A stretch of DNA of 45,372 nt from Alphaproteobacteria bacterium (GCA_027488965.1 JAIYAO010000053.1:1-45372); one strand, 5' to 3'. Positions 8,289-40,264 are shown, counted from the stretch's first letter. Made by a program: numbers and translations. Notes: a model not told the origin generated them from the letters alone.

Positions 8289-8492
8289 GCCACTTCTACC
8301 CGCATTGGGCGGAGACTAATTGCAACTCAATAGTACTTGAAGGCGGGTCGGTACAATTTCTGGCCCCGGGGCGAGCGCTCGGGACATTATGAGAGATTTC
8401 AGGCGGCGCACAGACCATACACATTTGCAGCCAACAGACGACTTTCGACCACAGCCGTAGGACGCAGCCTGACGCGGTCCGGCCGCATTACC

Positions 8493-22785: not shown

Positions 22786-23487
22786 CTACCGCCTGCTTCT
22801 CGGCTGGCGACGGGAGGGCACCTCCGGTGGCACCGCCCCTGCGGCAGCCGCGGCCTGGGTTGCGAGCGCCTCCAATCGGACGGGATTTGCCTCACGGGGC
22901 GGGATGGCCGCAAACAAGCGATACGATTCAGCTGTGCCGTTGCTCATGTCGCGCGCATCGCGCCGGATGTAGTGCTCCACTTCGGGTGAATAGTGCCACA
23001 CGAGGCGCTCAAGCACCCGCATCGAGTTGGGGCTGAACCTGTCGCACTGGATGGGCCACGCGGAGAATGCACCGGCGGGAACGGCGATCCTCTCCTGCGC
23101 ACGCACCACGCATGTCCACAGATGGACGCTCCGGCGCGAACGTCTGCCCTTGTCCACCGTCGAGTTGACGGTCCGGAATTGCACCCGTCGGCCCGCGGCA
23201 AGCGGCCACAGGCGTTGCGGTTCGCCGAGGACAGCCCGTGACCCGGCCTGCCCCCGGAATGACCACTCCAGGATCGGCACGACCGGGTTGGCGCTCCGGA
23301 CATAAGTCCGACCGCTGCGCGCGGCCCAGACGACCTTGTCGCCATCGGTTTCGCGCACCTGCTCAACACGCCCGTTGTCGAAGACGAATGCCTGGCCGGG
23401 CTCGTATCGCGGGAGCGGCGAGGCGTGTGCGGAAACAAGCGCGCCGCTCCACAGCAGAAGGGCGCCGAGCGAAATCCAGACTCTCAT
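22786..23487 (-). CDS. Secreted hypothetical protein, second gene of the subtilase operon
   Basis: A 233-residue protein with a signal peptide (MRVWISLGALLLWSGALVSAHAS). The mature part is beta-rich, has two Cys (W-T-C-V-V and I-Q-C-D-R, about 25 apart, perhaps a disulfide) and ends in an Ala/Pro/Arg tail. I recognise no family. Its start overlaps the subtilase stop by 4 bases (23484-23487), so it is co-translated with it and falls under the same ECF-type promoter (25260-25285). Confidence 0.72.
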   Translation of the reverse strand: MRVWISLGALLLWSGALVSAHASPLPRYEPGQAFVFDNGRVEQVRETDGDKVVWAARSGRTYVRSANPVVPILEWSFRGQAGSRAVLGEPQRLWPLAAGRRVQFRTVNSTVDKGRRSRRSVHLWTCVVRAQERIAVPAGAFSAWPIQCDRFSPNSMRVLERLVWHYSPEVEHYIRRDARDMSNGTAESYRLFAAIPPREANPVRLEALATQAAAAAGAVPPEVPSRRQPRSRR

Positions 23488-25205
23488 TGCACGTTCTCCC
23501 CCGCCTTCAGAACGCCAGTGCCGTAAATGGGATCGCGCCCACGATCGCCCGCGTCCGCGGTGCTGGCGAGAACCTGCGCCACCGCTGCGCGCGCGGATGC
23601 TGCATCCGGCCGATCGTGCCGGGTGGCAAGCGCGGCCGCCACGAGCGGCGCGGCGAACGATGTGCCGCTGGCCTGAGTCATGCGCCCGCCCGGGGCGGCC
23701 ACCTGCACGCCCACGCCCCGCGCCGCCACATCCACATGGGGACCGCGTCCAGCGCGCCGGTACACTTCGCCATTCGCGTCCACTGCCGTTACGCCTATCA
23801 CGCCGTCATAGGCCGCCGGATAAAGAGGCGGTGCTGCAGGTCCGTCGTTGCCGACCGCGGCGACGATGATCATGCCGCGGGCCTGAGCTCGGCGGACTGC
23901 ATCTTCCACCAGACTGTTGGGCGGACCGGCCAGACTGATGTTCGCCACGGGGGTCTGATTGCGCGCCAGCCAGTCGAGCGCGCGCACCATGGCGTCAGCA
24001 GACGCGAGATCTGCGCCTTGCGCCGCGCGACCGACCACGTTGGCGGCGAACAGTCGCCCTTGCTGTCGGGGCCGGGCGGCTGCGGGATCGCTGCCCACAA
24101 GGATCGAGGCGACCGCAGTGCCGTGACTGTTGCCGGCCCCGACTGCCGGTCGCGTGCCGCGTGCGACGAAATCGGATTGGACGATGCTCGCACGCGCCAG
24201 CGCGGGATGCGTGACATCTACGCCGGTATCGACGATGCCGATCGAAGCCGACCGCAATGTCGGCGCGGCGCCGGCAGGCCCCGCCGCAGCGACAGCCGGC
24301 GCGAACGAGACGCCGCGAACCGGCAGATAGACGTGATTGAAATCGTAGGCCGTGTCGGGATCGGCGCGGCGGACCGCTTCCAGCGCCGCACGCGTCTGCT
24401 GGCCCCGCGGCACGCGTAGCTCGACGATCGACAGGCCAAGCGTCGTCAGGCGGTACCGTTCGACGATTTGGAATCCCAGTCCGCGCGCAAGCTCGAGGGA
24501 TGTCGGGTCTGCCTCGAGCGCCAGAATTTCCCCGGCGCGGACCCAGCGTCCCTCATTGTCGACATCGACGCCATCAGGCAATGCGGCGAGCCCGGCCACA
24601 TCGCGGTCGCCATCACGAATTCGCACACCGCCGTCGGCGTCTGCGCCGCGGACGCCGGCGCCGCCGGGCGCATCGTCGCCACCGCTGCGCCGGACGCCGC
24701 GCCGATCATCGGCATTGCCCGCATCGCCGACGTTGTCATCGTCGACCGGGCCGTCATCACCGACCGGGCCGTCGTCGTCTGCGCCGCCGGGTGCATCGTC
24801 TCCACCGGGGCCATCGTCGTCGCCGCCGCCGCCCGTCGCGCCGTCATCGTCGCCCGGGCCATCGTCGCCGCCTGCGCCGCCCACTTCGCCTGCCCCATCG
24901 TCGCCAGCGGCGTCGTCGCCGCCCGCATCGTCGCCCGCCCCCGCTTCTGCGTCGGCGCCATCGCCTGCGGCATCCAGATCGTCTGCGGCGCCATCGTTGC
25001 CGAGATCGTCCTGGCCCACGCCGTCGCCGCCCGCATCGTCCACCTCTTCCGTATCGTCATCCTCGTCAGGCACTTCCTGCGCACTGGCGCTGGACAGCCC
25101 AAGCTCCAACCCCGCGCCCACCCACTTGCGGACACGCTCATCGGCGAGGCCAATCCCCAATGCGGCGAGGGCGGCGGTCACGAGGATAAGGCGAGGTTTT
25201 GTCAT
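23484..25205 (-). CDS. Subtilisin-like S8 serine peptidase with long Asp/Gly-rich domain
   Basis: A 573-residue secreted protease. A leader (residues 1-43, ending SASAQ) is followed by about 130 residues of acidic low-complexity sequence made of D, G, A and few other residues (about 45-170). Then comes a region that may be a propeptide (about 200-300) and the S8 domain: Asp326 (GIVDTGVD), His361 (NSHGTAVAS), oxyanion Asn453 (VGNDGPA) and Ser516 (GTSFAAP). The triad is intact. ATG 25205 follows CAGGA; an in-frame upstream codon at 25250 is less likely. It is divergent from the ECF sigma gene with an ECF-type promoter of its own. It might process the repeat protein or the anti-sigma factor; both are inference. 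Confidence 0.87.
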   Translation of the reverse strand: MTKPRLILVTAALAALGIGLADERVRKWVGAGLELGLSSASAQEVPDEDDDTEEVDDAGGDGVGQDDLGNDGAADDLDAAGDGADAEAGAGDDAGGDDAAGDDGAGEVGGAGGDDGPGDDDGATGGGGDDDGPGGDDAPGGADDDGPVGDDGPVDDDNVGDAGNADDRRGVRRSGGDDAPGGAGVRGADADGGVRIRDGDRDVAGLAALPDGVDVDNEGRWVRAGEILALEADPTSLELARGLGFQIVERYRLTTLGLSIVELRVPRGQQTRAALEAVRRADPDTAYDFNHVYLPVRGVSFAPAVAAAGPAGAAPTLRSASIGIVDTGVDVTHPALARASIVQSDFVARGTRPAVGAGNSHGTAVASILVGSDPAAARPRQQGRLFAANVVGRAAQGADLASADAMVRALDWLARNQTPVANISLAGPPNSLVEDAVRRAQARGMIIVAAVGNDGPAAPPLYPAAYDGVIGVTAVDANGEVYRRAGRGPHVDVAARGVGVQVAAPGGRMTQASGTSFAAPLVAAALATRHDRPDAASARAAVAQVLASTADAGDRGRDPIYGTGVLKAGENVQ

Positions 25206-25259
25206 CGGATCATTCCTGCCTGCCGGCGCGGAGGCGTCGTTAAGGACCAATAAACAGCT

Positions 25260-25285
25260 AACGCCCCTTGACGTACCATTATTCC
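25260..25285 (-). promoter_or_regulatory. ECF-type promoter P1 (GGAAT-N17-CGTT) for the subtilase operon
   Basis: On the minus strand, GGAATAA (from 25285) and GCGTTAG (CGTT at 25263-25260) are 17 bases apart from GGAAT to CGTT. The transcript would start near 25254, giving a leader of about 50 bases. The same pattern appears seven times between 25.2 and 32.1 kb. Confidence 0.8.
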
Positions 25286-25313
25286 AGGACTGTTCAGAAT
25301 GTCATGATGACAA

Positions 25314-25339
25314 GGAATAACGTCTGCACTCGTGACGTT
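25314..25339 (+). promoter_or_regulatory. ECF-type promoter P2 (GGAAT-N17-CGTT) for the sigma/anti-sigma genes
   Basis: GGAATAA (25314) and ACGTTTG (CGTT 25336-25339) with a 17-base spacer, divergent from P1 with the -35 boxes 28 bases apart. The transcript would begin around 25345, only about 8 bases before the sigma ATG and on top of its GAGGA ribosome site. P2-driven mRNA may therefore be nearly leaderless. Confidence 0.7.
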
Positions 25340-25352
25340 TGAGGACCATGGC

Positions 25353-25877
25353 ATGGCCGACGATGCATCCGACACTCCAACGCCACGAGACCTGCTCGTG
25401 GCCGCGATCCCGCGGGTGCGAAGGTTCGCCTACGCCATGACCGGCTCCATGGATGCGGCGGACGACCTCACCCAGACGACACTCGAACGGGCGCTGGCCC
25501 AGATCGAGCGGTTCGAGCCGGGCACACGTATGGAGTCCTGGCTTCTCAGGATCGCCTTCAACGCCGCCATCGACGAGACCTGCCGCCGCAAGCGCCGTGG
25601 CGCACACATCGATGTGGACACGCTCGTCGATCTCGCCGGCCAGGACGGACGACGGGTGAGCGAAACACAGCTCGACCTGCAGGCGGCGCGCAAGGCGATG
25701 CGAGGCTTGCCGGAAGAGCAACGGGCGGTCCTGGCGCTCGTGGCGCTGGACGGCATGTCCTACCAAGAGACCGCCGACACCCTCGGCATTCCCATCGGCA
25801 CTGTGATGAGCCGCGTGGCGCGTGCGCGCCGGGCCGTTTCGCGCGCCGTCAACGGCGATGAAGGAGAAGTGCAATGA
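25353..25877 (+). CDS. ECF-family RNA polymerase sigma factor
   Basis: A 174-residue sigma-70-type factor with only regions 2 and 4. Region 2 (about 20-85): RFAYAMTGSMDAADDLTQTTLERALAQIERFEP, W-L-L-R-I-A-F-N. Region 4 (about 115-165): LPEEQRAVLALVALDGMSYQETADTLGIPIGTVMSRVARAR. The ATG at 25353 has GAGGA 7 bases upstream. The stop overlaps the anti-sigma ATG (ATGA at 25874). Seven GGAAT-N16/17-CGTT promoters nearby, including one in front of this gene, are its likely targets. Confidence 0.9.
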   Translation: MADDASDTPTPRDLLVAAIPRVRRFAYAMTGSMDAADDLTQTTLERALAQIERFEPGTRMESWLLRIAFNAAIDETCRRKRRGAHIDVDTLVDLAGQDGRRVSETQLDLQAARKAMRGLPEEQRAVLALVALDGMSYQETADTLGIPIGTVMSRVARARRAVSRAVNGDEGEVQ

Positions 25878-26608
25878 CCGGCGACGTCCGCGATGAGCGC
25901 CTGAACGCCTACATCGACGGTGAACTGCAGGGCGACGATCTCGCCCTGCTGGAGCAACAGCTCGCGGCCGACAGCGCGCTGCGGACACGCATCGAGCATC
26001 TTCGCTCCGTGGACCGCACGCTTGCAGCGGCGTTTGCACACCCGGATCTCGCGACTGTTCCATCACGGTTTCAGGCCATCCTGAATTCGCCGCCGGCCGA
26101 CAACGTCGTCACGCTGTTCCCACGCAAGGCAGCTGCCTGGCAGCTGCCGATCGCAGCAGGGCTTGCACTGGCGATCGGCGTGGCGGGCGGCTTCCTGACC
26201 GGGCGCTCGGCGGATACGCAGACCCCCTCCGTCATTGCCGCGCTTGCCGAAGGCGTTGGACCCCGGGACTCGTTGCATCGCCTTCTGAGCGCGACGCCGA
26301 GCGCGGATCGGCGCACACAGGGCAACGTTGTGTTCGAGCCGGTGCTGACATTCGAGGCGGCCGATGGACGCTTCTGCCGCGAATTCGAGATCACTGCCGG
26401 CGCGGAAGCGGCCGTAGGCGTCGCCTGCAAGTCCGGCGAGGAGTGGCGTCTCGAAGTGCTGACCGCGAGCGCGGCCATCGACGGTTCGGGATATGCGCCG
26501 GTCTCGGGACCTGACGCACTCATCGACGGTGCGATGGAAAGACTCGGGGCCAAACCGCCCCTCTCTCCAGAAGCGGAAGCGGTGTTGATGCAGAAGGGCT
26601 GGCGCTGA
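25874..26608 (+). CDS. Membrane-bound anti-sigma factor
   Basis: A 244-residue protein coupled to the sigma gene by ATGA overlap. Residues 1-60 resemble an anti-sigma domain (DERLNAYIDGELQGDDLALLEQQLAADSALRTRIEHLRSVDRTL). The HxxxCxxC zinc motif of ZAS anti-sigmas is absent. One membrane helix (about 90-110, LPIAAGLALAIGVAGGFLTG) leads to a periplasmic domain with two Cys (F-C-R-E, V-A-C-K). It should hold the ECF factor at the membrane until an envelope signal releases it. Confidence 0.83.
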   Translation: MTGDVRDERLNAYIDGELQGDDLALLEQQLAADSALRTRIEHLRSVDRTLAAAFAHPDLATVPSRFQAILNSPPADNVVTLFPRKAAAWQLPIAAGLALAIGVAGGFLTGRSADTQTPSVIAALAEGVGPRDSLHRLLSATPSADRRTQGNVVFEPVLTFEAADGRFCREFEITAGAEAAVGVACKSGEEWRLEVLTASAAIDGSGYAPVSGPDALIDGAMERLGAKPPLSPEAEAVLMQKGWR

Positions 26609-26657
26609 CGCGCGCAGCCTGTCGCATGGTCCCAGCCCCCGCGGACTGACAGATCTG

Positions 26658-28199
26658 TTATGCTTCTTCGGCGACGGGATCGAGCATCACCTGCCGCGTC
26701 CCCGCCGTCGGCTGGGCATAGGAGGCGGCGACAATCGCAGCCCCCGTCGCCGCCGCTACGCGCTTGAGAAGGGCCGGCGCGTCGGGTGAATAGAGCAAGA
26801 TCGGTTCAGCGATCAGAATGACCCGAGGGCGGTGCGTTATCGCCCGGGCCAGCCGCAGCATCGCCTGCGACAGTTCGTCCGGACGCCTGAGCGCCGGATC
26901 GATGGGCTGTGACAAGGGCCAGCGCGCGACCGGCAGCCCCACGATGCGCAGTGCGTCCCGCATCTCATCGTCCGTCGTCCGGACGCGTCGCAGCGACAAG
27001 TTTCGCCGCAACGATGCGCGGACGAGGGGAATACCGGGAGACACCAGGGCCACGCGTCGCCCCAGTTCCCTCCGGCTCAGCTGGGCGAGGCTTTTGCGGC
27101 CGAGGAAGCTGAACGAGGACGGGGCCCCGCCCGCCTCGACCGCCGCAAGAGCAGCGCCGCCCTCTTCAGCGCAGACAAGAACAACCTCGCCGCTCTGCAC
27201 GGGGATCGCGGCCCGGCCAGGCGGGCGCATGAGAAAATCTGCGGCGGACTCAAGCACCGGCGCCTCGCGCGCTGCGACGCCGGAAACATGTTCCGCCTTG
27301 CCGAGACGTTGCATGCGCTGCGCCGCAACCGAGAAGGCGGCCTGAGAATCGATGGCGCGCGACAGGGAGCGCAAGCCAAGCCCAAGAAAGCTCGCGCCGA
27401 ACAGCGCCATGGCCCAATCGGCGCTACTCATCGCCGCGCCCCGCCCTTGAAGCAGCACAAGCACAATGAGCACGACCGGCGCCGCGAGCACGGCCGGCGC
27501 ATCGAGGGCGGACGCCCACTTCCGCCTGCGGACAGCGTCCGTGCGCAGGCGCGCGGCGCGCCTCTCAAGGCGTTTGCGCTCCCGAGAAAATGCGTCGAAA
27601 CGGGAGATCGCAGAAGCGCCTAGCACGATGTCTCCGGCGACGGACGCCACCCGGCCACGGCTGGTGCGCAGCGTACGGATCGCCGACACCAGCCCAGGGC
27701 GGAGCAGCCCATAGGCGCCTGCCGCTGCGACCACGCAGCCAACTGCCGCCGCCAGTCCGTAGCTGCCGCCGGCGATGGCGAGCGCCACGATCGCCGACAC
27801 CAACGCAGCGACGCCCGCAGCCGATTCCGACAGCCCCACCGCCACCCACTCCCGCATGGGATTGAGGTCGCCGGTCATGCGAACCGCCATGGCGCCGAGC
27901 CGCCGATTTCCAGCGGCGGACGCCGCATGCTCGGCCAGCATCAACCGCATCTCGTTGGCGTACGCCATGCCGAGGTCTTCGGCGAAGACGCTGCGCAACC
28001 AGCCGGCCGCAAAAGACACCACAGCAACACCGACGAGCACGCCGGCGGGCACCGCCCACCCGGCGCTGGCGACGGCGGCATCGAGCAAGTTGCGGAGCAA
28101 GACCGCGCTTGCGGAAAAAAGCCCCGCCTCGGCCAGCGTGAGCAGGCCGAGGCGGGCAAACGGCCAACGCCTGGTGGGGGCTAGCAGGCTCGGCGTCAT
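26658..28199 (-). CDS. ABC-transporter-like protein with degenerate ATPase domain
   Basis: A 513-residue protein laid out like an ABC exporter half. Residues about 10-310 hold about six membrane helices (LLTLAEAGLFSASAVLLRNLLDAA ... SSADWAMALFGASFLGLGLRSLSRA). The C-terminal domain (about 340-513) has the order of an ABC ATPase but without key residues. The Walker A position reads VVLVCAEEGGAALAAVE, with no GxxGxGKS/T. The signature is PDELSQAMLRLARAI instead of LSGGQ. Walker B is RVILIAEPI, without the Asp. It probably cannot bind ATP normally. Its ATG overlaps the stop of the P-loop NTPase gene (28196-28199). Confidence 0.75.
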   Translation of the reverse strand: MTPSLLAPTRRWPFARLGLLTLAEAGLFSASAVLLRNLLDAAVASAGWAVPAGVLVGVAVVSFAAGWLRSVFAEDLGMAYANEMRLMLAEHAASAAGNRRLGAMAVRMTGDLNPMREWVAVGLSESAAGVAALVSAIVALAIAGGSYGLAAAVGCVVAAAGAYGLLRPGLVSAIRTLRTSRGRVASVAGDIVLGASAISRFDAFSRERKRLERRAARLRTDAVRRRKWASALDAPAVLAAPVVLIVLVLLQGRGAAMSSADWAMALFGASFLGLGLRSLSRAIDSQAAFSVAAQRMQRLGKAEHVSGVAAREAPVLESAADFLMRPPGRAAIPVQSGEVVLVCAEEGGAALAAVEAGGAPSSFSFLGRKSLAQLSRRELGRRVALVSPGIPLVRASLRRNLSLRRVRTTDDEMRDALRIVGLPVARWPLSQPIDPALRRPDELSQAMLRLARAITHRPRVILIAEPILLYSPDAPALLKRVAAATGAAIVAASYAQPTAGTRQVMLDPVAEEA

Positions 28200-29248
28200 G
28201 CCGCTTGTCTTGTGTCGTCCTTGCCGATCTGGGCGAGAAATCCTCTGGCCGTGTCCGCGGTCGCCAGCATTTCGCGCGTGTAACAGGAGATCCCCGTGGC
28301 GCGCTCCGCCTCGCGGGACGCCAGCGGAGAGCGGGAGATGAGACCGCTCAGGCCCAGAACACGCCCATGCGTACGCAGCCACTGGACGCCGAGAGCGGCG
28401 GAGGCCGCACTTTCACCGGCGTAGAGGTAACCGTCCACGAGATCCGAAAGCACCGCAGACTCGATGAGCCATGCCGTCTCTTCCTGGAAGAGGCCGTCCG
28501 CGATCTCGAAGACCAGCACTTCTGCGCCGGAGTCCACAAGATGTGCAGACAATGTGTTCGCACAGATTTCGAGATCGAGATGGGAGGCCCTGTAGGTCGT
28601 GGCGAGGCCCGCATCGGTGAAATCGAGGACCCGGATCGCCCCGGCATCACGCATGTGCCAGTAGTCGTTGCCGGCCCCGGTGCCCGTCAGCTTGGCGGCG
28701 CCGACCTTGAAGCCGGCTTGTGTCAGGCCGCGGATGACGGCGGCCGCCGTCGTCGTCTTGCCCGCATTCATCGATCCACCCGCGACGCAGATGCCCGGAA
28801 CCTTAAACGTTGGCGCACCCTTACGCAGCGCATGGTCGCGCACGTTGACGATGCTGAGGTCGTCTTCGACAAAGAGACCGATGGGCTCGATGCGCGTTGG
28901 CTCGGCGATGCGCTGGTTCTTGAAGGCGACGCGGGCCGCAATCCCTCCGCCTGCGGCAAGGTCGCACGGCCCCAAGTCTTCCGGCACGTGGGCCTCGAAC
29001 TGGTCTGGAGCGTAGCGGTTTCCATAGGCGAGAATGACTTCATCGCCGACGAAGAGCTTCGCCTTGCGGCTGGTGGGAAGCTCAAGATTCTCGTGAGCCC
29101 CGATCTCCAGGACGCGCGCAAGAACGACGTCGCCCGCCCGCGGCGCGGCGCCCACCGACACGGCGCCGAGGGATGTCGCCGCCACGTTGCGCGTGCTGAA
29201 CGCGCGCTTTGCATTGGCGAGACGTTCACGGTCGATCAGGGTGGTCAT
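28196..29248 (-). CDS. P-loop NTPase (DUF1611/MobB-like)
   Basis: A 350-residue protein. An N-terminal beta-rich half (about 1-150) precedes a P-loop domain with an intact Walker A, GSMNAGKTTTAA (near residue 175), then AKLTGTGAGNDYWHMRDAGA and EVLVFEIADGLFQEE (Walker B-like). The order is close to DUF1611-type proteins and the MobB/dethiobiotin-synthetase-like NTPase group; the exact family is uncertain. ATG 29248 is preferred over a codon 18 bases upstream. It is the first gene of a two-gene operon with the degenerate ABC protein and lies under promoter P3. It may supply the ATPase function the partner has lost (inference). Confidence 0.68.
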   Translation of the reverse strand: MTTLIDRERLANAKRAFSTRNVAATSLGAVSVGAAPRAGDVVLARVLEIGAHENLELPTSRKAKLFVGDEVILAYGNRYAPDQFEAHVPEDLGPCDLAAGGGIAARVAFKNQRIAEPTRIEPIGLFVEDDLSIVNVRDHALRKGAPTFKVPGICVAGGSMNAGKTTTAAAVIRGLTQAGFKVGAAKLTGTGAGNDYWHMRDAGAIRVLDFTDAGLATTYRASHLDLEICANTLSAHLVDSGAEVLVFEIADGLFQEETAWLIESAVLSDLVDGYLYAGESAASAALGVQWLRTHGRVLGLSGLISRSPLASREAERATGISCYTREMLATADTARGFLAQIGKDDTRQAA

Positions 29249-29300
29249 CGCAGATCCTGCTCTCAAAACCGCTGCATTTTCTGCAGCTTTCAGAATATCT

Positions 29301-29326
29301 AACGATGGACCACCCGTCTCTATTCC
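29301..29326 (-). promoter_or_regulatory. ECF-type promoter P3 (GGAAT-N17-CGTT) for the NTPase/ABC operon
   Basis: Minus strand: GGAATAG (from 29326) and TCGTTAG (CGTT 29304-29301), 17-base spacer. The predicted start near 29295 gives a leader of about 45 bases. It sits just past the porin stop codon. Confidence 0.78.
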
Positions 29327-29335
29327 AGTCCCGTG

Positions 29336-30397
29336 TCAGAACCTGAAGGAAACTTCTGCGATCGCCACGTACCCCGAACGGCTGGCCCGGCCCACGGGCA
29401 TTTCATCGATGGACACCACATCGCCGCGAACGACCCAATGGTCGCCAAACTCGTAGTAGGCGCCGGCCCCAAGGAGACGGTTCGTGAAGACGGTGGAGTC
29501 CGTTTCGGAGGCGGAGATCGCTGCGCCCCATTTGTCGTCACGCCAGGCAATGCCTGCATTCACTTCATCTTCGTCGAGCCCCCGCGTCAGGCTATTGCTG
29601 TCGCCCCGGCTGACGTAGGCTGCGCCGATCGAAAGCTTGTCGCGCCGAACTTCGCTGCCCACGCTCCACGACCTCAGATCTTCCCGCTGCGTCACCGGGT
29701 CGGCCTCGCCGGTCACATACGCGATGCTGATGCCCCCGGCCCACGGCCCGATCGAATTCTGATAGGCGCCCGCCACTTCAATGGCGTTGTCCTGCCGCGT
29801 ACGGCGGCGTGGGTTTGGGTCGCTCGAATTGGACTCGAACTTCGGCGCATAGGACGCGCCGACCCGGAAGCCGTTGATCGGCGGTGAGAGATAGAGAACC
29901 TTGATAGAGTCCCGCGTGTCGAACGGGCTCAGCAGGGCGGCGGTGCCTGCATAGCGCACGAAGTCGCCACGGATCTGTCCCAGCCCCACAGCGGGCGCAT
30001 GCAGCGAGATGGTATCGGCCGGGCCATCCTGTTCGCCCAGTTCGAAGCGTCCGAAGGCGCCTGAGAGATACGCGTAGATTTCATCACGCTGCAGGTCTTC
30101 CACTTCTCGCTCGCCGGTATCCACCTCAACCCGCAGGCCAAAGGTGAGCCCCCGCGGCGTCACGTACTCAGCGTTCAGGATCAGGGACGCATCCGCTTCC
30201 GTGTTTTCATCCGTCAGGCCGGTAGAGGGATCTTCGAAAGCTCCCCCCTGGAACGAGACAGCGCCAGTCGCCGTCAGGTCCACGCCATTGACGGTCGCAC
30301 GCAGGTCCTGCGCCGACGCCTGACCGGTAATACCGGCCCAGATCGCCATGACTGCAGCACCTGCCATCAGCCCCCTGCCCGCCTTGAATCGCTTCAT
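29336..30397 (-). CDS. Gram-negative porin
   Basis: A 353-residue outer-membrane barrel with signal peptide (MKRFKAGRGLMAGAAVMAIWAGITGQASAQ). The mature part has alternating strands, acidic turns (DTGEREVEDLQRDEIYAYLSGAFGRFELGEQDGPAD, the porin loop-3 region with a F-G-x-x-x-L-G-x-x-D/Q signature) and the C-terminal Phe (AEVSFRF) needed for barrel assembly. It looks like a porin_4/OmpC-like general porin. It is under an ECF-type promoter (P4), so it belongs to the same regulon as the subtilase and the repeat protein. Confidence 0.82.
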   Translation of the reverse strand: MKRFKAGRGLMAGAAVMAIWAGITGQASAQDLRATVNGVDLTATGAVSFQGGAFEDPSTGLTDENTEADASLILNAEYVTPRGLTFGLRVEVDTGEREVEDLQRDEIYAYLSGAFGRFELGEQDGPADTISLHAPAVGLGQIRGDFVRYAGTAALLSPFDTRDSIKVLYLSPPINGFRVGASYAPKFESNSSDPNPRRRTRQDNAIEVAGAYQNSIGPWAGGISIAYVTGEADPVTQREDLRSWSVGSEVRRDKLSIGAAYVSRGDSNSLTRGLDEDEVNAGIAWRDDKWGAAISASETDSTVFTNRLLGAGAYYEFGDHWVVRGDVVSIDEMPVGRASRSGYVAIAEVSFRF

Positions 30398-30479
30398 CGC
30401 TAAGTACCCCCGTATGTGTTTCTTGCCGCACGCGCGCGCCGGAGCCTGCCGGACCCGCATTTGCGCGCACGGAAGCATG

Positions 30480-30504
30480 AACGTCCGAGGAATGGGTTTA
30501 TTCC
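30480..30504 (-). promoter_or_regulatory. ECF-type promoter P4 (GGAAT-N16-CGTT) for the porin
   Basis: Minus strand: GGAATAA (from 30504) and ACGTTCA (CGTT 30483-30480), 16-base spacer. Start near 30473 and a leader of about 75 bases to the porin ATG at 30397. Confidence 0.72.
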
Positions 30505-30643
30505 GGTGGTTGCAACGCCACCGGAGCGTCGGGATGCTTGTTTATTGGCGAGCCGCGTCGCTTGGGGGCCAAGCGTCACTGCAAGGCCACAGTCGCGCAT
30601 CGGGGGAAGCTGCCACCGACGACGAAGAAACAGACGCCGCGGC
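30505..30643. other. Spacer between divergent ECF-type promoters
   Basis: The 320-base gap between the porin and the repeat-protein gene consists of P4, this stretch, P5 and a 50-base leader. I see no gene in it. Frames that cross it on either strand have shadow composition. Confidence 0.5.
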
Positions 30644-30669
30644 GGAATAATCGTTGGCAACCGGTCGTT
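30644..30669 (+). promoter_or_regulatory. ECF-type promoter P5 (GGAAT-N17-CGTT) for the SNSS-repeat gene
   Basis: GGAATAA (30644) and TCGTTAA (CGTT 30666-30669), 17-base spacer. Start near 30675; leader of about 45 bases with a GGAAGGTG ribosome site before ATG 30719. Confidence 0.8.
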
Positions 30670-30718
30670 AACACCAAGCCCGCCCAAAACCTGCGGGCAG
30701 TGACCCGGAAGGTGAACC

Positions 30719-31129
30719 ATGAACAAACTCACATTGGCCGCCGCAGCATCCGTCGCGGCGCTCGGACTGTCGGTTGTCCCCGCCTCGGCAGCCCCCACCA
30801 CTGCCCTCGTCCACGGGGCCGACGCACTGGAGATTTCGCGCACCCTGTCTCGCGCAGATGCGTCAGGCGAGGCGGCCGTGCAAGAAATCCAGGAGCGCCG
30901 CAGGGCGTGGCGGAGCCGTTCCAACAGCTCTTCCAATTCCAGCAGCAACTCCTCGTCGAACTCGAGCTCGAACAGTTCGTCGAACTCCAGCTCCAACTCG
31001 AGCAGCAACTCGTCCTCGAACTCGAGCTCTAACTCCAGCTCGAACTCGTCGTCGAACTCTTCCTCGAATTCCTCCTCGAATTCGAGCTCCAACTCGTCGT
31101 CCAACTCGAGCTCCAACAGCTCGACGTAG
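30719..31129 (+). CDS. Secreted Ser/Asn tetrapeptide-repeat protein, (SNSS)17
   Basis: A 136-residue protein. A signal peptide (MNKLTLAAAASVAALGLSVVPASA) is followed by a 43-residue stretch with a helical, charged end (SRADASGEAAVQEIQERRRAWRSR). It closes with seventeen uninterrupted SNSS units plus a final Thr, from residue 68 on. The Ser codons vary between TCC, TCG, TCT and AGC from unit to unit, so the amino-acid pattern is kept although the DNA is not a simple copy. Each unit contains N-S-S, an N-x-S sequon. No Cys, no known family. It has its own ECF-type promoter and a strong terminator after the stop. A surface or matrix protein, or a substrate of the co-regulated protease, is possible. 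Confidence 0.78.
   Translation: MNKLTLAAAASVAALGLSVVPASAAPTTALVHGADALEISRTLSRADASGEAAVQEIQERRRAWRSRSNSSSNSSSNSSSNSSSNSSSNSSSNSSSNSSSNSSSNSSSNSSSNSSSNSSSNSSSNSSSNSSSNSST
30920..31123 (+). repeat. Protein-level tandem repeat: 17 units of 12 bases coding SNSS
   Basis: A 204-base tract with period 12 at the protein level and alternating synonymous Ser codons at the DNA level. On the opposite strand the same tract reads as an artificial Glu/Leu/Phe repeat. Confidence 0.85.
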
Positions 31130-31140
31130 GGGACGGGGCT

Positions 31141-31173
31141 TGCAGCGGGGAAGGCCCCACCTTCCCCGCTGCA
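31141..31173 (+). terminator. Hairpin terminator after the repeat-protein gene
   Basis: A perfect 14-base-pair stem (TGCAGCGGGGAAGG with its complement) around a CCCCA loop, 12 bases past the stop. No T-run follows, so the exact mode of termination is open. It also lies at the tail end of the convergent DUF6065-like gene and could serve both directions. Confidence 0.7.
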
Positions 31174-31280
31174 TTCGCGCGCCCTAGGGCGGCGTGTTTC
31201 ATTATTGCGGACAAGAACTACAGTGGTCGAGATGGCTCAGCCTGGCATGCCTGCCCGCTGGCGTAGGTGGATTACCTGCA

Positions 31281-31985
31281 TCAGGCCCGCTTCGCCCGCG
31301 CGTTCTGGCGATACCATGCCGCCCCGGCCTGCGTACTCCGAAGAATCCGGTCGCGATCTGCGGCCTCCTCCGATGTTTCGCTGCGCACATCCATAATCAT
31401 CTCTGAGCGTTTGAACGCCACGATCTGCGCAATGGGCGTGCCCTTCTCAATCTCGTAAAGACCGTCTTGCGCCGTCATGAAGAATGGAAGGTGAATCTGC
31501 GACCGGTAGGTATCGGTATCGACCACGCCGGAGAGGATCTGGAAGAGAGGGTTGGGCCGGTTCAGCGGCGGCATGATCATGACGCTCCAGCCAGGCGGGG
31601 TGGCGATCGTCCAGAAATTGTGGAACTTGCACGCCGGTCCGGCCCCGAATGGATGACCGGCCACCTGGAAGGATGGATGGTAGCTGACCATCTCGCGGTC
31701 GAAATCCCAGCCGGCATTGACGGTCTGCCCACCGTCCGACACTTCAAGGCGGACAGTCGCGGCAAGGGGGAGTATCCAGCCGACGGTCAACGCATCGAGG
31801 AACGGCAGGCATCGTTTCACTGTCAGGCCGTTGTTCGTCGGGCTCTGCGCCCCGGCATCCACCGGTGGCAAGCGCTTGAACCAGGCGGGCATTGCGGTCT
31901 TTGCCGGCGCAGGCTCGGCGATGACGCCCTTGTCGGCGGGCGCGCAGGTAAACGTGATGCGCGGCGGGCGCGCAAACTCAAACAT
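31281..31985 (-). CDS. DUF6065-like protein
   Basis: A 234-residue protein without signal peptide or membrane helix. It has conserved-looking segments (VKRCLPFLDALTVGWILPLAATVRLEV, W-D-F-D-R, KFHNFWTIATPPGWSVMIMPPLNRPN and IHLPFFMTAQDG...IEKGTPIAQIVAFKR), a cupin-like beta-rich layout that I associate with DUF6065; the match is from memory and uncertain. The function is unknown. It is divergent from the next gene and under ECF-type promoter P6, tying it to the sigma regulon. Confidence 0.65.
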   Translation of the reverse strand: MFEFARPPRITFTCAPADKGVIAEPAPAKTAMPAWFKRLPPVDAGAQSPTNNGLTVKRCLPFLDALTVGWILPLAATVRLEVSDGGQTVNAGWDFDREMVSYHPSFQVAGHPFGAGPACKFHNFWTIATPPGWSVMIMPPLNRPNPLFQILSGVVDTDTYRSQIHLPFFMTAQDGLYEIEKGTPIAQIVAFKRSEMIMDVRSETSEEAADRDRILRSTQAGAAWYRQNARAKRA

Positions 31986-32018
31986 GACGTCACCCCGTAT
32001 CGCGACTGTTGGGACGAT

Positions 32019-32044
32019 AACGTCCGATGCGCGCGTCTTATTCC
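32019..32044 (-). promoter_or_regulatory. ECF-type promoter P6 (GGAAT-N17-CGTT) for the DUF6065-like gene
   Basis: Minus strand: GGAATAA (from 32044) and ACGTTAT (CGTT 32022-32019), 17-base spacer. Back to back with P7, the two -35 boxes being 8 bases apart. Confidence 0.8.
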
Positions 32045-32052
32045 CGGCCCAG

Positions 32053-32077
32053 GGAATATCTCCGCGCGCCCGGCGTT
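32053..32077 (+). promoter_or_regulatory. ECF-type promoter P7 (GGAAT-N16-CGTT) for the secreted protein at 32109
   Basis: GGAATAT (32053) and GCGTTAT (CGTT 32074-32077), 16-base spacer. Leader of about 25 bases, with CCGGAGG 5 bases before the ATG. Confidence 0.75.
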
Positions 32078-32108
32078 ATGGAAGGGTTCAGACTTTCCGG
32101 AGGCTTCC

Positions 32109-33071
32109 ATGCGCGGACTGACAGTAGCGCTTCTCATGTCTGCCGCGGGCGTAGCGCACGCAGACCCACAGGCCGCCATGCTGCGCGACGCGCCTGCCGT
32201 CTCGCCTGTTCTTACCGAACACAGTGCGGGCCTGCGGTGCCTCGGCGGCCTGATCGAGCAAAGCCAGCAGACGCCGGTGAGCGTCTCGGTGCGCGACATC
32301 GACGACACGACCGTACCCGTCCTGAACGAGGAGCGACGGCTGAGCATGGGCGGATCATTCGTGCTCCACACTGCGATCTCCCGCATGGAAACATCGAAGG
32401 TGCAGGGCGTACTGGACGATACGCGAACCGGTCAACGCCAGCTGACGCTCTCCGGGGCGTGGACGCAGGATGACCTTTTCACCGGCGAGAAGGGCATCGG
32501 CATCCGATTCCGGTCCGGCAACTTCAGCGGCGGCCTTGGCCGGCGCACCGCCTATGACTTTGTCGCCGGAGACTTCGCATCTTCGGTCAATGGAAGGATC
32601 CGCCTGTCGACGGCGGTAGGCGTCGCCCTCCCCCGTCGCGGCAACGAGGCGTTTCTCGTCATCGACGACGGCGCGGACGGCGCCAACGTCGGCTTCGACA
32701 AACGCCGCGTGCAGGGCGTGCAGATGGCCCAGCGGCGCATCCTGGAAGCGGTCGCGCTCGTCCACCTGTCGGACTACTTCCAGATCGACTATCGGCCCTG
32801 CCTTCAAGCCACCAACGCGACGCCGGAAGCCTTCGCCGGCGCCATCAGGCGCTATGAACGCATGCCGCCGGCCGAACGCCACGCGGCGGTCCGCACGGAG
32901 CTGGCGAGGGTCGGCTTCCAGACCTCGACGAGCCCGCCCCGCACATGGGATTCCGGCAGCGCCACAGCCCTGATGTCCTTCCAGTCCGCCCATAAGCTGC
33001 CGCCGACGGGCCGGCATTCGCCAATTCTATTCGCGCTTCTTTCCACCATGGCGATGCCCAAGAAGACCTGA
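32109..33071 (+). CDS. Secreted protein with C-terminal peptidoglycan-binding-like segment
   Basis: A 320-residue protein with a short signal peptide (MRGLTVALLMSAAGVAHAD). The body begins LTEHSAGLRCLGGLIEQSQQTPVSVSVRDIDDTTVP, resembling the N-terminal part of CsgG-like or curli-related lipoproteins, and includes an F-N-x-S-G-G-L-G-R region and L-V-H-L-S-D-Y-F-Q-I-D-Y-R-P-C-L. The last 60 residues (VGFQTSTSPPRTWDSGSATALMSFQSAHKLPPTGRHSPILFALL) look like one peptidoglycan-binding (PG_binding_1) repeat. The ATG at 32109 follows GGAGG. Under ECF-type promoter P7. An envelope role is likely; the exact function is unknown. Confidence 0.68.
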   Translation: MRGLTVALLMSAAGVAHADPQAAMLRDAPAVSPVLTEHSAGLRCLGGLIEQSQQTPVSVSVRDIDDTTVPVLNEERRLSMGGSFVLHTAISRMETSKVQGVLDDTRTGQRQLTLSGAWTQDDLFTGEKGIGIRFRSGNFSGGLGRRTAYDFVAGDFASSVNGRIRLSTAVGVALPRRGNEAFLVIDDGADGANVGFDKRRVQGVQMAQRRILEAVALVHLSDYFQIDYRPCLQATNATPEAFAGAIRRYERMPPAERHAAVRTELARVGFQTSTSPPRTWDSGSATALMSFQSAHKLPPTGRHSPILFALLSTMAMPKKT

Positions 33072-33455
33072 ACTCCTTTACTAGTCAGATGGGTGTTGCT
33101 GGCACCCCATGTGTCTGGAGGGGTACTGTCTGTCGCCGGATTGCGATGAATACAAGCGCCTGGCATGCGACCCATTGCGTCCGAAGCCACCCCAGATAGG
33201 CGCGCTTGAGACCTTTGCGCGAATGGCACCAATGGGCCATGACCTCCCCGGCGCGCCATATTGTGACTGATGTCCGGGTCGCTCAAGACTAGCCCTTCCC
33301 GGCCGTCCGTGCCGTCCGTGCCGTCAGGCCGGTGCGAGCCCAGAAATACGTCCGGCCTGCAGGACCCGAGATTAAAATCGCCGACCTAGCGCGCCGCGAG
33401 TTGCGTCCCTCCTACGGCCAGTTTAACCTCTTGCGAGCGGCTTCGGGAGGGATGA
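33072..33455. other. Intergenic stretch with dispersed-repeat copy A
   Basis: The 384 bases between the ECF block and the CHAT gene contain no convincing gene. The middle is repeat copy A (33234-33335). GGGAGGGATGA just before 33456 is the ribosome site of the CHAT gene. No GGAAT-N16/17-CGTT pattern is present, so the CHAT/caspase genes are probably outside the ECF regulon. Confidence 0.55.
33234..33335 (+). repeat. Dispersed intergenic repeat, copy A
   Basis: Begins GGGCCAT, then GCGCCATATTGTGAC, CGCTCAAGAC and a GC-rich part ending GTCAGGCCGG. The order of blocks is shared with copies B, C and D. Confidence 0.6.
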
Positions 33456-36227
33456 GTGCGCCGCCACTGCACGATACTGCTGTTGGGCCTCACGGTCCTG
33501 CTGTCTCCGTCACTCGCGGCGCGCGAGCACGCGTCGGTCACGCTGACGACATGCTCTGCCTCCTCCGCCCGCCCGCAGGATGACTTTCCCATATCATACG
33601 AAACGCCCGAGGACTTCGCCGCCGCGCGAACGCGCGCGGAGCTGGAGCTCAGCCGTGGGAATTACGCCGCGGCTGGTGACATGCTCGACCTGCTCGCCAC
33701 CGAAACTGACACGCGCCTGCTGGACGAGGACGCGCGCACCGACCTCACAGTCCTCTCGGCGCTAGCGTTGGCCCGGCAGGGCCGCCCGGCGGACGCCGAA
33801 GCGCGGCTGGACGATCTGGTGCGCACCAGACCAAACCGAACCCATCTCCGCGATGCGCAGCTTCACTTCTACGCGGGATTGGTCGCCGTCGAGAAACGCG
33901 ACGTTCGCGCCGCTGAGGGGCGGCTTTTTGCTATCGAGCAGGTTGCGAATGATTTGGCGCTGGGTCGAAGCCGCGTCTTCGATGCGTTCATTTTTGAGAA
34001 TGGAACGGTCGAGATCACGGAGATCGGCGCCGCGTCGGACCGAGAGCTGCAATCGACATCGCCTTGGAGGATCCTGCGCGCGCGTGCCGACTACCTGCAC
34101 GCCAGGCTGAAGGAGCTCGAAGCGGATATCACTGACCGTCCTCTCACTCGCGACACCGCGATCCGAGACAGCCTTGAGAGCACGCGCTACGCTCTGAACA
34201 ACTCCCCGCGCCTCCAGTTCACGCCCTGGTGGGGCCCGGACACAGATACGCAGCTGGCACGTAGGCATCTGGACGACGGCCGTCACCGCGATGCGTTGCG
34301 CTTGGCACAAGACACCTTGAAGAAGTACCCCGCGAGCATGGGCGGCGGCCTCGAATCCCGGCTTCGCCGTATCATGGCGGAGGCGCACGCTGCTCTCGGC
34401 GATCGCACCAGCGCGCTGCGCGAAACTCAGGCAGCAGTGTGCGCCGGCGCACAGCAGGGCTCGCTAACCGCGACGGACGCCGCTCCCCTTCTCCACCTTG
34501 TCCTTGGGCCGGTCGAACGCACCGACGACAAGGCGGTCGTCGGCGGACTCTTCCGCATCGCCGCCAGCGTCTCGGATAGCGGCGACATCCAGCAACTGCT
34601 GCGGCGCACGAACTATTCCGGCATGAGCGGCTCGCGGGAACGCCAACAGGACGTGCTCAACCAGGAAATAGCGCTGCGCCGGCTGCGGGAGCAGCTGCGG
34701 GGCCTGCTGGCAGAGGGCAGGTCCCGCAACGAAGAGGACATCCGCATCGCCAGAAGCCGCCTGCGCGACATGACCCGTGAGCTCGCCACCATGCGCAGCG
34801 GACAGATGCAGGCCATCGCCGATGTCAGCCTCGACTCGCTGCAAGCCGTTCTGCGCCCCGACGAACTCTACTTCCGGCTGGTGAGCGACAACGACAACGC
34901 GGTCGCGCTCGCCGTCACGCGGACAAGCGCAAGGGCCTATCGCATCACCGATGCGACGCGCCTCCAAAGCCAGCTACAAGTCATTCAGGAGAGCGTCCTT
35001 CGAACGTTGCGCACCGCGAATGGCAGTCGGACTGTTGAGGTGCTCGACGACGCTGCGGAGGCGTACCAGCTTCTCTTCGGACCGGCCGCCGATCTGATGG
35101 CGGGCGCGCGCCACCTGACAATCGACGTCACCGGCGCCGCCGCGAACGTCCCATTTGCCATGCTGCTGACGCGCGCCCTCACGACGGCGGAACTTGCGAC
35201 CCTTCGCGCGCAAGTCCGTCAGAGCGGCGGATACAACTACGTCGGCGTACCCTGGCTTGCCCGGGATCGGACGATCTCCATTGTGGTTGACGCGGCGTGG
35301 TTCCGGGCACGGCGCGAAGAGTCCGTCGGATCGCGCGCTACGAAGGCATTCGCGGCGTTTACTTACCCGCCCGTGGACGAAGCGATGCGCGACCAGCGCG
35401 CTGCGGCCTTGGCGACGACGGTGCAGCAGCGATTGCCTTCGCGCTATGGGAAGGCGGAATGCGCGAACCAACTGACTGAGGTCTACTCCTACCAAGGGAT
35501 CCAGAGCGCCGATGCTGAAGCGACCGAGGCGGCGAGAGCGCTTGCGAAAGACGACCCCGACGCTGCGACCATCGTATCCGGCGACAACTTCACCGATGCG
35601 CGCCTGCTGAACTTCCGCCCCTTCGCACAAACTCTCGGCAAGCCCGGCGGCCTTGAAGACTACCGCGTGCTCGCTTTCTACACGCATACCCAGCGGCCCA
35701 CCAGCTCAGACGAGTGCCTGCGCGAGCCCATGCTGATCACCAGTCAGGCAGACATCGCGAGCGTCAGCGACCAGTATGACCAGAGTTCAGCGGGGGATGG
35801 GCTCCTTACTGTCTCGGAACTACTCGATCTCAAGTTCGATGCAGACCTGATCTGGTTGCCCGACGATGGAATGGTCGGCGTGAACCGCATCCGGGATGGC
35901 GAGCGGTCTGTGTCTGACCGCGCATCGTCGGTGCGCACGCAAGGCATCAGCGCGGGCGGCGTTGTGGGCGAACTTTCGGCGGGCTTCTTTCTCGGCGGCG
36001 CGAGAGCCGTCGCTGGCAGTTACTGGACCACAAGCAGCGACGCGCATCGGAAACTGAGCACCAGCTTCTTTGAGGCCGCCGCGCAGGGCATGCCGCTCGC
36101 AGACGCCATGCAGACCAGCCAGCACAAGCTCATGGACGATCCAGATCTGTCCAATCCTCTATTCTGGGCGCCGTTCGTCATCCTCGGCGACGGCTCCAAG
36201 ACTCTACGAACGGGGTACCGGCAATGA
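33456..36227 (+). CDS. Secreted CHAT-domain protein, probably catalytically dead
   Basis: A 923-residue protein starting with GTG (GGAGGG ahead) and a signal peptide (LLLGLTVLLSPSLAARE). Residues about 50-350 are helical repeat-like (TPR-type segments such as RGNYAAAGDMLDLLATE), followed by a coiled coil (about 390-450). The C-terminal half has the CHAT layout ending in ELSAGFFLGGARAVAGSYWTTSSDAHRKLSTSFFEAAAQGMPLADAMQTSQHKLM...NPLFWAPFVILGDG. A possible His is in VLAFYTHTQ, but the place of the catalytic Cys (LSAC) reads LIWLPDDG. It overlaps the caspase gene by ATGA. Confidence 0.8.
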   Translation: MRRHCTILLLGLTVLLSPSLAAREHASVTLTTCSASSARPQDDFPISYETPEDFAAARTRAELELSRGNYAAAGDMLDLLATETDTRLLDEDARTDLTVLSALALARQGRPADAEARLDDLVRTRPNRTHLRDAQLHFYAGLVAVEKRDVRAAEGRLFAIEQVANDLALGRSRVFDAFIFENGTVEITEIGAASDRELQSTSPWRILRARADYLHARLKELEADITDRPLTRDTAIRDSLESTRYALNNSPRLQFTPWWGPDTDTQLARRHLDDGRHRDALRLAQDTLKKYPASMGGGLESRLRRIMAEAHAALGDRTSALRETQAAVCAGAQQGSLTATDAAPLLHLVLGPVERTDDKAVVGGLFRIAASVSDSGDIQQLLRRTNYSGMSGSRERQQDVLNQEIALRRLREQLRGLLAEGRSRNEEDIRIARSRLRDMTRELATMRSGQMQAIADVSLDSLQAVLRPDELYFRLVSDNDNAVALAVTRTSARAYRITDATRLQSQLQVIQESVLRTLRTANGSRTVEVLDDAAEAYQLLFGPAADLMAGARHLTIDVTGAAANVPFAMLLTRALTTAELATLRAQVRQSGGYNYVGVPWLARDRTISIVVDAAWFRARREESVGSRATKAFAAFTYPPVDEAMRDQRAAALATTVQQRLPSRYGKAECANQLTEVYSYQGIQSADAEATEAARALAKDDPDAATIVSGDNFTDARLLNFRPFAQTLGKPGGLEDYRVLAFYTHTQRPTSSDECLREPMLITSQADIASVSDQYDQSSAGDGLLTVSELLDLKFDADLIWLPDDGMVGVNRIRDGERSVSDRASSVRTQGISAGGVVGELSAGFFLGGARAVAGSYWTTSSDAHRKLSTSFFEAAAQGMPLADAMQTSQHKLMDDPDLSNPLFWAPFVILGDGSKTLRTGYRQ

Positions 36228-37756
36228 GAACCCTCTTCGTTGTGTTGAGCGTGCTCCTTCTCGGCGTCACCGGCGGAGCGGCGCAGGAAACGACGCCGCT
36301 GCGCGTGGCGCTCGTGATCGGCAACGGCGCCTACACGGCAGTGCAACCGCTCGACAATCCCGTACGCGACGCGCGCCTCATCGAGGCGGCGCTGAAGCGC
36401 ACCGGCTTCGATGTCGTCGCGCACTACGACGCCACCAAGCCGCAGGTCGACGCGGCGCTGCGCGCATTCAGCCGCAAGGCTGCGCGCGCCGACGTGGCGC
36501 TCGTCTACTACGCGGGCCACGGCATCCAGCTCGAGCAGGAGAACTGGATTATCCCGGTCGATGCGCAACTGGAGTTTGCCACCGACGCGCGCTCGGAGGC
36601 GGTTCGCCTTGAAGACGTGATCGCGATCATGGGTCCGACGCGCAAACTGCGTATCGTCGTGCTCGACGCGTGCCGCGATAACCCGTTCACAGTGCGCTTC
36701 GCTTCGGCAGGCCGCGCGCTGACCCGCGGTCTGGCGCCGGTGGAAGGCTTGCCAGGCGGCACGGTCGTCGCGTTCTCCGCGGGGCCCGGCCAACAGGCAT
36801 CGGATCGCCCTGCCACGGGCGGAGAGAATTCTCCGTATGCGCTGGCGCTCGCACGCCGCATGCTGGAACCGGGTGTAGAACTTTCGCAGGTTCTGCGGCG
36901 CGTCCGCGGCGACGTGATGCGCGATGCACCGCCGCAGGAACCGTGGGCGAACGAGAGCCGGCTCGACGAGGATTTCTATTTTGTCCCGGTCGCGACGCGC
37001 GGCAGCCCGCGCCCGCCGCCAACCGCCGTCGGCAGTGTGTTCCGTGACTGTGACAAGTGCCCCGATATGGTGATTCTGCCGCCCGGCACGTTCCGCATGG
37101 GCTCGCCTGAGAACGAACCCGGCCGCCGGTCGAACGAAGCTCAGCGCATCATACCGATTCGCGCGTTCGCGATGTCGAAGTTCGAGATCACTGCCACACA
37201 GTGGCGCGCGTGCAAGGCGGCGGGCAGATGCACCCACCCCGGCGGTGTCCCCATCGACATAAACCTGCCTGTGACGGACGTGAGCTGGCACGACGCCGAA
37301 CTCTATGTAGCGTGGCTCAACGAGCAGGCCGGTGCGCGCGTCTATCGCCTCCCCTCTGAAGCGGAGTGGGAGTACGCGGCGCGCGCAGGCGCATCGACTG
37401 CGTATGCGTGGGGCCCGACAGCGTCGCACGAACGCGCCAACTACGGCGCTGAGCAGTGCTGTCGCGGTGCGAGGGACGGCCGCGACACGTGGGATGGTCC
37501 CGCGCCGGTTGGCTCCTTCCCCGCCAACGCGTTTGGCTTGCACGACATGCACGGCAATGTCTGGGAGTGGACCGCCGACTGCTATTCGGAGACTGCTGAT
37601 CTGGCCGACGCGATCCGCGGAGACTGCCGTTTCCGCGTGTTGCGCGGCGGCTCCTGGTACGGCGATCCGCAGAACCTGCGCGCCGCCCTGCGGCTGCACG
37701 ACTATCCCACGCACCGCGCCGGCAATGGCGGCTTCCGCGTGGCGCGTACGCTGTAG
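36224..37756 (+). CDS. Caspase-domain (C14) protein fused to an FGE-sulfatase domain
   Basis: A 510-residue secreted protein (signal peptide, cleavage near AAQE). Residues about 25-250 are a bacterial caspase-like (orthocaspase) domain: VALVIGNGAY, His99 in YYAGHGIQ and Cys150 in VVLDACRDNPF, so the dyad is intact. Residues about 275-510 are a formylglycine-generating-enzyme/SUMF1-type domain (MVILPPGTFRMGSPENE ... RLPSEAEWEYAARAG ... GLHDMHGNVWEWTADC ... RVLRGGSW). In caspase proteins this domain acts more often as a binding module. It is co-translated with the CHAT protein; the two likely work together in the periplasm. Confidence 0.88.
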   Translation: MRTLFVVLSVLLLGVTGGAAQETTPLRVALVIGNGAYTAVQPLDNPVRDARLIEAALKRTGFDVVAHYDATKPQVDAALRAFSRKAARADVALVYYAGHGIQLEQENWIIPVDAQLEFATDARSEAVRLEDVIAIMGPTRKLRIVVLDACRDNPFTVRFASAGRALTRGLAPVEGLPGGTVVAFSAGPGQQASDRPATGGENSPYALALARRMLEPGVELSQVLRRVRGDVMRDAPPQEPWANESRLDEDFYFVPVATRGSPRPPPTAVGSVFRDCDKCPDMVILPPGTFRMGSPENEPGRRSNEAQRIIPIRAFAMSKFEITATQWRACKAAGRCTHPGGVPIDINLPVTDVSWHDAELYVAWLNEQAGARVYRLPSEAEWEYAARAGASTAYAWGPTASHERANYGAEQCCRGARDGRDTWDGPAPVGSFPANAFGLHDMHGNVWEWTADCYSETADLADAIRGDCRFRVLRGGSWYGDPQNLRAALRLHDYPTHRAGNGGFRVARTL

Positions 37757-40143: not shown

Positions 40144-40264
40144 GTCGATTTCCCTCAAATAGCTGCGACACCGCTTAGAGTTTGCATCGCCGCGTGCGTT
40201 CGTTAATGCTATCTTGAACTGGTTCGGTGCTCGATCGTCCGGAATTGCTAACGGCGCGAGGAAG

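Follow-up and report, generated by a model that had tools for sequence, protein, structure and literature searches.

What switches on the genes around the extracytoplasmic function (ECF) sigma factor encoded in JAIYAO010000053.1:1-45372, a stretch of 45,372 nucleotides from Alphaproteobacteria bacterium (GCA_027488965.1), referred to here at its full length as the window? A first-pass annotation of this DNA had noticed one promoter pattern, GGAAT-N16/17-CGTT, seven times between positions 25,260 and 32,077, and proposed that the local sigma factor controls all seven downstream units (ten genes), including its own. Our sequence comparisons argue that the seven sites, P1 to P7, are very probably ECF26-type promoters read by the sigma factor at 25353-25877, which would co-activate all seven units. 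The locus shows that counting the occurrences of a single promoter pattern can reveal a local regulon from the sequence alone. The sites are:

P1, 25260..25285, minus strand: GGAAT-N17-CGTT before the S8 peptidase unit, 54 nt to the ATG at 25205
P2, 25314..25339, plus strand: GGAAT-N17-CGTT before the sigma/anti-sigma genes, 13 nt to the ATG at 25353
P3, 29301..29326, minus strand: GGAAT-N17-CGTT before the P-loop NTPase and ABC unit
P4, 30480..30504, minus strand: GGAAT-N16-CGTT before the porin gene
P5, 30644..30669, plus strand: GGAAT-N17-CGTT before the gene of an exported (SSSN)n protein
P6, 32019..32044, minus strand: GGAAT-N17-CGTT before the DUF6065 gene
P7, 32053..32077, plus strand: GGAAT-N16-CGTT before the gene of a protein with a peptidoglycan-binding domain

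When both strands of the window were searched for GGAAT-N16/17-CGTT, 8 exact matches were found where 0.53 would be expected, a count that not one of 100 control shuffles attained. All seven sites first noticed were recovered at their positions and strands; the accompanying claim that the pattern occurs nowhere else in the window did not hold, as an eighth exact match at 39964-39940 on the minus strand had been missed. This match reads GGAATC, without the A at position 6, lies inside a FAD-oxidase gene (38728-40299) and is intragenic background. P1 to P7, by comparison, are intergenic in 7/7 cases, though intergenic DNA makes up just 8.4% of 22786-37756. Each is oriented towards a gene, with 13-82 nt between the end of CGTT and the likely ATG, in agreement with the roughly 10-85 bases originally estimated. 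T at position 5, A at position 6 and CGTT are present in all seven, five have the N17 spacer and two N16, and the extensions to GGAATAA and to CGTTA that had been ascribed to most sites each occur in 5/7.

The whole genome (3.28 Mb in 200 contigs) was scanned by pattern rather than by matrix, and the hits cluster here and nowhere else, as anticipated if the regulon is local. GGAAT-N16/17-CGTT has 23 matches genome-wide, 8 of them in the window and the other 15 scattered. The narrower GGAATA-N15/16-CGT has 17, of which 7 fall in this 6.8-kb block and the remaining ten are all internal to open frames 145 aa or longer; a reversed control pattern gave 8. Seven sites in 6.8 kb compare with 0.02 expected, for a Poisson P of ~4e-16 that is indicative, the pattern having been picked after the block was seen. 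One of the ten other hits, a GGAATAG-N-CGTT sequence (G000:C119 7193-7217), stands 32 nt before an alternative start inside a gene that resembles cysteine desulfurases by sequence; it is the sole distant candidate for a regulon site, and a weak one.

The sigma factor itself comprises 174 aa with Pfam Sigma70_r2 and Sigma70_r4_2 as its only domains, the ECF architecture, and is 50% identical over 151 aa to the sigma encoded at the rpoE6 locus of Sinorhizobium meliloti, a plant symbiont. In a sigma tree with long paralog branches and an arbitrary root, it groups with RpoE6 and the other module sigmas, apart from the other ECFs of its genome including EcfG (support 95/91). The ECF26 promoter consensus comprises a -35 GGAATA and a -10 GT (Lang et al., PMC6180224), and all seven window sites agree with it. 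Divergence of an ECF26 sigma gene from a serine protease gene is widely conserved in the group (PMC6180224); the S8 protease gene of the window (23484-25205) is divergent from the sigma gene in the same way, an arrangement that recurs in relatives. By its kinship to RpoE6, its place in the tree, the consensus of its sites and the divergent protease, the window sigma is assigned to the RpoE6-like ECF26 factors, and no second ECF26-like sigma was found in the genome. The classic ECF promoter shape recognized at first sight was therefore real and can be narrowed to the known ECF26 consensus, so that the promoter type is not new.

Measured transcription in S. meliloti bears directly on several of the units. 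There, RpoE6-dependent transcription has been shown for the protease, SSSN-protein and DUF6065 genes, promoters have been mapped for the protease, anti-sigma and DUF6065 genes, and the RpoE6-dependent promoters of ecfR6, SMa0142 and SMa0148 are of the form GGAATA-N15-CGTT (PMC6180224). Of the listed RpoE6 targets, SMa0148 responds most strongly (log FC 6.5; SMa0142, 4.7), and SMa0146 is counted as one of the most prominent (PMC6180224). The PLSDB record of the pSymA rpoE6 region (L195) is unannotated, and its genes were identified by matching sites to published promoters and by gene order. It holds GGAATA sites before the S8 protease gene (7913-7936), within the sigma gene ahead of the anti-sigma gene (8457-8480), before the (SSSN)n protein gene (9315-9338) and before the DUF6065 gene (10708-10731). 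Sites one, two and four correspond to the published promoter sequences of SMa0142, ecfR6 and SMa0148; the (SSSN)n gene, identified as SMa0146 by position, has a 128-aa product whose N-terminus is signal-like. Since these genes match SMa0142, SMa0146, SMa0148 and ecfR6, the P1, P5 and P6 units and the anti-sigma gene of the P2 unit have orthologs tested as RpoE6 targets. Identity between window and S. meliloti proteins is 57% for DUF6065 and 39% for the S8 protease. The mapping of transcript 5' ends suggested for these promoters thus has a counterpart in the start sites mapped in the S. meliloti orthologs only (PMC6180224, matched to L195).

Relatives' loci were collected with three baits, namely the anti-sigma factor (same family), the NTPase (named genomes) and an anti-sigma profile (class-wide). 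The pattern scored in them was the one first seen in the window, so the evidence lies in the comparison with permuted motifs and not in box conservation itself. A site precedes the sigma gene in 19/45 loci with a sigma ortholog, against a mean of 0.08 for permuted motifs; 12/42 relatives have one before the S8 gene (permuted motifs, 0.12), and 13 of the 17 sigma-bearing loci have one before the NTPase gene (mean 0.03), compared with just 4/64 loci with no sigma in view. In 16 class-wide loci found through the anti-sigma factor alone there are 28 sites against a permuted mean of 2.7 (maximum 23). For P4, genome G016 has the same site ahead of its porin ortholog (L092 17799-17822), and for P7 a Sphingomonadales metagenome-assembled genome has it ahead of the corresponding ortholog (L104 1019-1043). 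Sites stand at orthologous genes even in other gene orders. Outside the boxes of the aligned promoters, column information is mostly low, except for the T after CGT and, in NTPase promoters, the A after GGAATA; the boxes stay while the spacers drift, as had been expected of true sites at orthologous loci.

Taken together, these comparisons support the regulon that was first proposed; the autoregulatory part, in which the sigma would act on its own gene through P2, is a prediction from the position of the site. The window sigma probably uses P1 to P7 in this organism through a simple circuit. The RpoE6-like sigma would be held by a predicted membrane anti-sigma factor encoded directly behind it and, once this is switched off, would start transcription with RNA polymerase just past each CGTT. 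It would thereby turn on together itself and the anti-sigma factor, the S8 protease and the gene behind it, the P-loop NTPase and ABC-like protein, the porin, the small exported (SSSN)n protein, the DUF6065 protein and the peptidoglycan-binding-domain protein.

Several observations weigh against this circuit. The strict motif is not always kept: it is missing from 26/45 sigma upstream regions, and thus from many relatives that do have a related sigma and S8 protease. P4 and P7 are supported by one relative each, and P5 and P6 by S. meliloti alone. P2 would leave a leader of just ~5-8 nt before the ATG at 25353, and P2-type autoregulation is not universal, as the S. meliloti rpoE6 gene has a promoter of RpoD/RpoH-like type (PMC6180224). 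The model of the anti-sigma factor is poor at its presumed membrane segment (pLDDT <50 at 76-125).

Some of these points would suit a divided regulon, in which the sigma reads most sites while P2, or the P4 and P7 units, depend mainly on other promoters and keep the motif in a minor or residual role. The rpoE6 precedent and the single supporting relatives of P4 and P7 fit such an arrangement, and a sigma-70-like promoter scan gave one match near P1, though its total was at chance level. However, none of the seven sites matches better than the others, their placement is similar, and the site at the sigma gene is kept in the 19 relatives counted above; we regard divided control as unlikely, if the most serious competitor. 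A far more improbable alternative is that P1 to P7 are read chiefly by the general stress sigma EcfG rather than by the local one. EcfG promoters are near-identical in shape (GGAAC-N16/17-CGTT), and in S. meliloti the targets of RpoE6 and RpoE2 (EcfG) overlap at 27/40 with similar consensus motifs (PMC6180224). The genome also has its own EcfG: the nearest paralog of the window sigma (38-39% identical), on another contig, is most likely this factor because PhyR-like and NepR-like frames adjoin it and GGAAC sites lie upstream. Yet RpoE2 targets carry GGAAC (PMC6180224), as do the sites at that locus, whereas P1 to P7 all have T at position 5 followed by A, and sites before NTPase genes occur almost only where an ECF26 sigma is near. 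The block contains no PhyR or NepR gene and its sites read GGAAT, not GGAAC, which sets the window sigma apart from EcfG (ECF15). Finally, seven close copies could arise by chance or as a by-product of local duplication, a reading that no result supports and that we consider negligible given the excess over expectation, the presence of sites at orthologs in other gene orders, and spacers and flanks no more alike than random sequence (29%, 30% and 27% similarity against 27%), which means that P1 to P7 are not copies from a segmental duplication.

With the local ECF26 sigma as the preferred reader, the anti-sigma factor would be the point of signal input. Its homology to the EcfR6 ortholog extends over the full length and the gene order is shared; judged from the sequence, a hydrophobic stretch near 92-113 is probably its membrane segment. 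ECF26 anti-sigmas of S. meliloti are described as having a transmembrane segment and a C-terminal periplasmic domain (PMC6180224), and this description, with the hydrophobic stretch, suggests that the domain bearing Cys168 and Cys185 is periplasmic. The equivalents of C168, R169, C185 and W191 are invariant in 44/44 orthologs. In the structural model (mean pLDDT 74.9), C168 and C185 face each other by register on the neighboring strands of a predicted beta-hairpin (167-175 and 178-187); a fold search with the anti-sigma factor gave no PDB match at E <= 0.001. The N-terminal part of the window protein has no zinc-type motif because it has no cysteine. We infer that a Cys168-Cys185 disulfide in the C-terminal domain could form the sensor switch. 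Sulfite can cleave disulfides. RpoE1 and RpoE4 of S. meliloti respond to sulfite (PMC3511301), and rpoE6 is reported not to be induced by sulfite-generating compounds.

The genes of the block are listed below; where a gene read from its first in-frame start overlapped a promoter or lacked support, a downstream ATG was taken instead.

22786..23487, minus strand: conserved protein with no Pfam match, behind the S8 gene here and in several relatives
23484..25205, minus strand: S8 peptidase (Pfam); signal-like N-terminus, Asp/Gly-rich low-complexity region
25353..25877, plus strand: ECF sigma factor, ECF26/RpoE6-like (Pfam, tree)
25874..26608, plus strand: anti-sigma factor (weak Pfam zf-HC2; orthology)
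26658..28199, minus strand: ABC-transporter-like protein (weak Pfam ABC_membrane)
28199..29248, minus strand: MobB-like SIMIBI-class P-loop NTPase (weak Pfam MobB; structure model)
29336..30397, minus strand: outer-membrane porin, Porin_4 (Pfam)
30719..31129, plus strand: small protein; signal-like N-terminus, (SSSN)n tail (sequence)
31281..31985, minus strand: DUF6065 protein (Pfam; S. meliloti ortholog)
32109..33071, plus strand: PG_binding_1 domain protein (Pfam); signal-like N-terminus

The gene at 22786-23487 likely belongs to the P1 unit. Module S8 proteases, in the window (23484-25205) as in L251, L253 and L261, have long acidic low-complexity N-terminal regions of variable length (DDDIEDDIESD, DDGGDDGG). 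The NTPase is modeled with high confidence (pLDDT 94.7) as a SIMIBI-class protein with a beta-rich N-terminal part, and its best PDB matches are SRP54/FtsY, HypB and dethiobiotin synthetase; the sequence search found no solved-structure relatives for it or for DUF6065. A DUF1611 label for the NTPase finds no support in Pfam, though PLSDB annotates relatives as DUF1611. The neighboring ABC-like protein (26658-28199) lacks a Walker A motif (GxxxxGK[ST]), which 36/43 relatives have, and is possibly an inactive or repurposed ATPase. A second DUF6065 gene in the genome (G000:C134 14094-14774, L214) is 57% identical and without the promoter site; no GGAATA site was found before this paralog or before 15 class-wide DUF6065 homologs, which served as negative controls.

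Beyond the block, a phage-type integrase gene (20267-20914) lies a few kb away, a hint of past mobility. On the other side, a CHAT-domain protein overlaps a caspase/FGE-sulfatase protein (33456-37756), adjoining the regulon with no site of their own. These genes were considered as core members and left outside the regulon because no site precedes them, no CHAT gene is near the relatives' sigma and a 384-bp gap follows the peptidoglycan-binding gene. A defense reading is not supported, PADLOC giving only partial matches to an IetS (protease) and a caspase model. The literature on ECF sigmas combined with CHAT, or on DUF1611 with peptide products, yielded nothing relevant.

What the regulon does may be read from the company its promoters keep. 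Behind such sites, signal-like N-termini and low-complexity segments recur: (SSSN)n in the window and S. meliloti, GGGS (L123), GADDPAGHVRQ (L127, L179) and DNSG/DDDG (L086, L095). In relatives, sites also precede genes for Asp/Asn beta-hydroxylases (L116, L126; Pfam) and, in Paracoccus albus (L197), an HTTM/VKGC carboxylase; beta-hydroxylase-like genes stand behind this promoter type in L125 and L181 as well. These associations suggest a role in cell envelope or exported repeat protein biology, which may be under redox or thiol control, and a processing pathway for repeat proteins could be imagined. In its fullest form, a doubtful but possible proposal, the ECF26/RpoE6-type regulon would be a widespread, undescribed alphaproteobacterial system that makes, modifies and releases low-complexity exported proteins (Ser/Asn or Asp/Gly repeats) and comes on when the invariant Cys168-Cys185 disulfide changes state, with the S8 protease, NTPase/ABC pair, porin, DUF6065 protein and the relatives' beta-hydroxylases or vitamin K-type carboxylase as processing parts.

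How does this regulon compare with known systems? EcfG/RpoE2 (ECF15) shares a very similar promoter shape, but is controlled by PhyR/NepR and reads C at position 5, whereas the window sigma has a predicted membrane anti-sigma factor and coexists with a separate EcfG. RpoE1/RpoE4 of S. meliloti (PMC3511301) are likewise ECF26 sigmas, with a -35 GGAATA, small autoregulated regulons and a downstream anti-sigma factor. However, most of their listed promoters have CGTC or related -10 elements (PMC6180224), in contrast to CGTT in the window, and their sulfite oxidation target genes are absent from the block. With CGTT throughout, the window sites are assigned by their -10 element to the RpoE6 subtype of ECF26 promoters.

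The closest counterpart is the RpoE6-EcfR6 regulon of pSymA. The two share the ECF26 sigma/anti-sigma pair, a divergent S8 protease with a low-complexity N-terminal region, the (SSSN)n and DUF6065 proteins, GGAATA/CGTT sites before corresponding genes, and local clustering of the main targets. They differ in that the window has additional P-loop NTPase and ABC, porin and peptidoglycan-binding units, and carries a site directly before the sigma gene and none inside it before the anti-sigma gene. RpoE6 also activates distant genes, whereas the pattern scan of the window genome found no convincing distant site. RpoE6 targets had been measured in S. meliloti without a definable role; by the present comparison the module is conserved across Alphaproteobacteria and exceeds the S. 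meliloti version in size, its extra members can be named, and two invariant cysteines provide a sensor idea. The ECF26 promoter class and part of the regulon (S. meliloti RpoE6) were thus already known; the enlarged membership, the breadth of the module across Alphaproteobacteria and the invariant anti-sigma cysteine pair are new.

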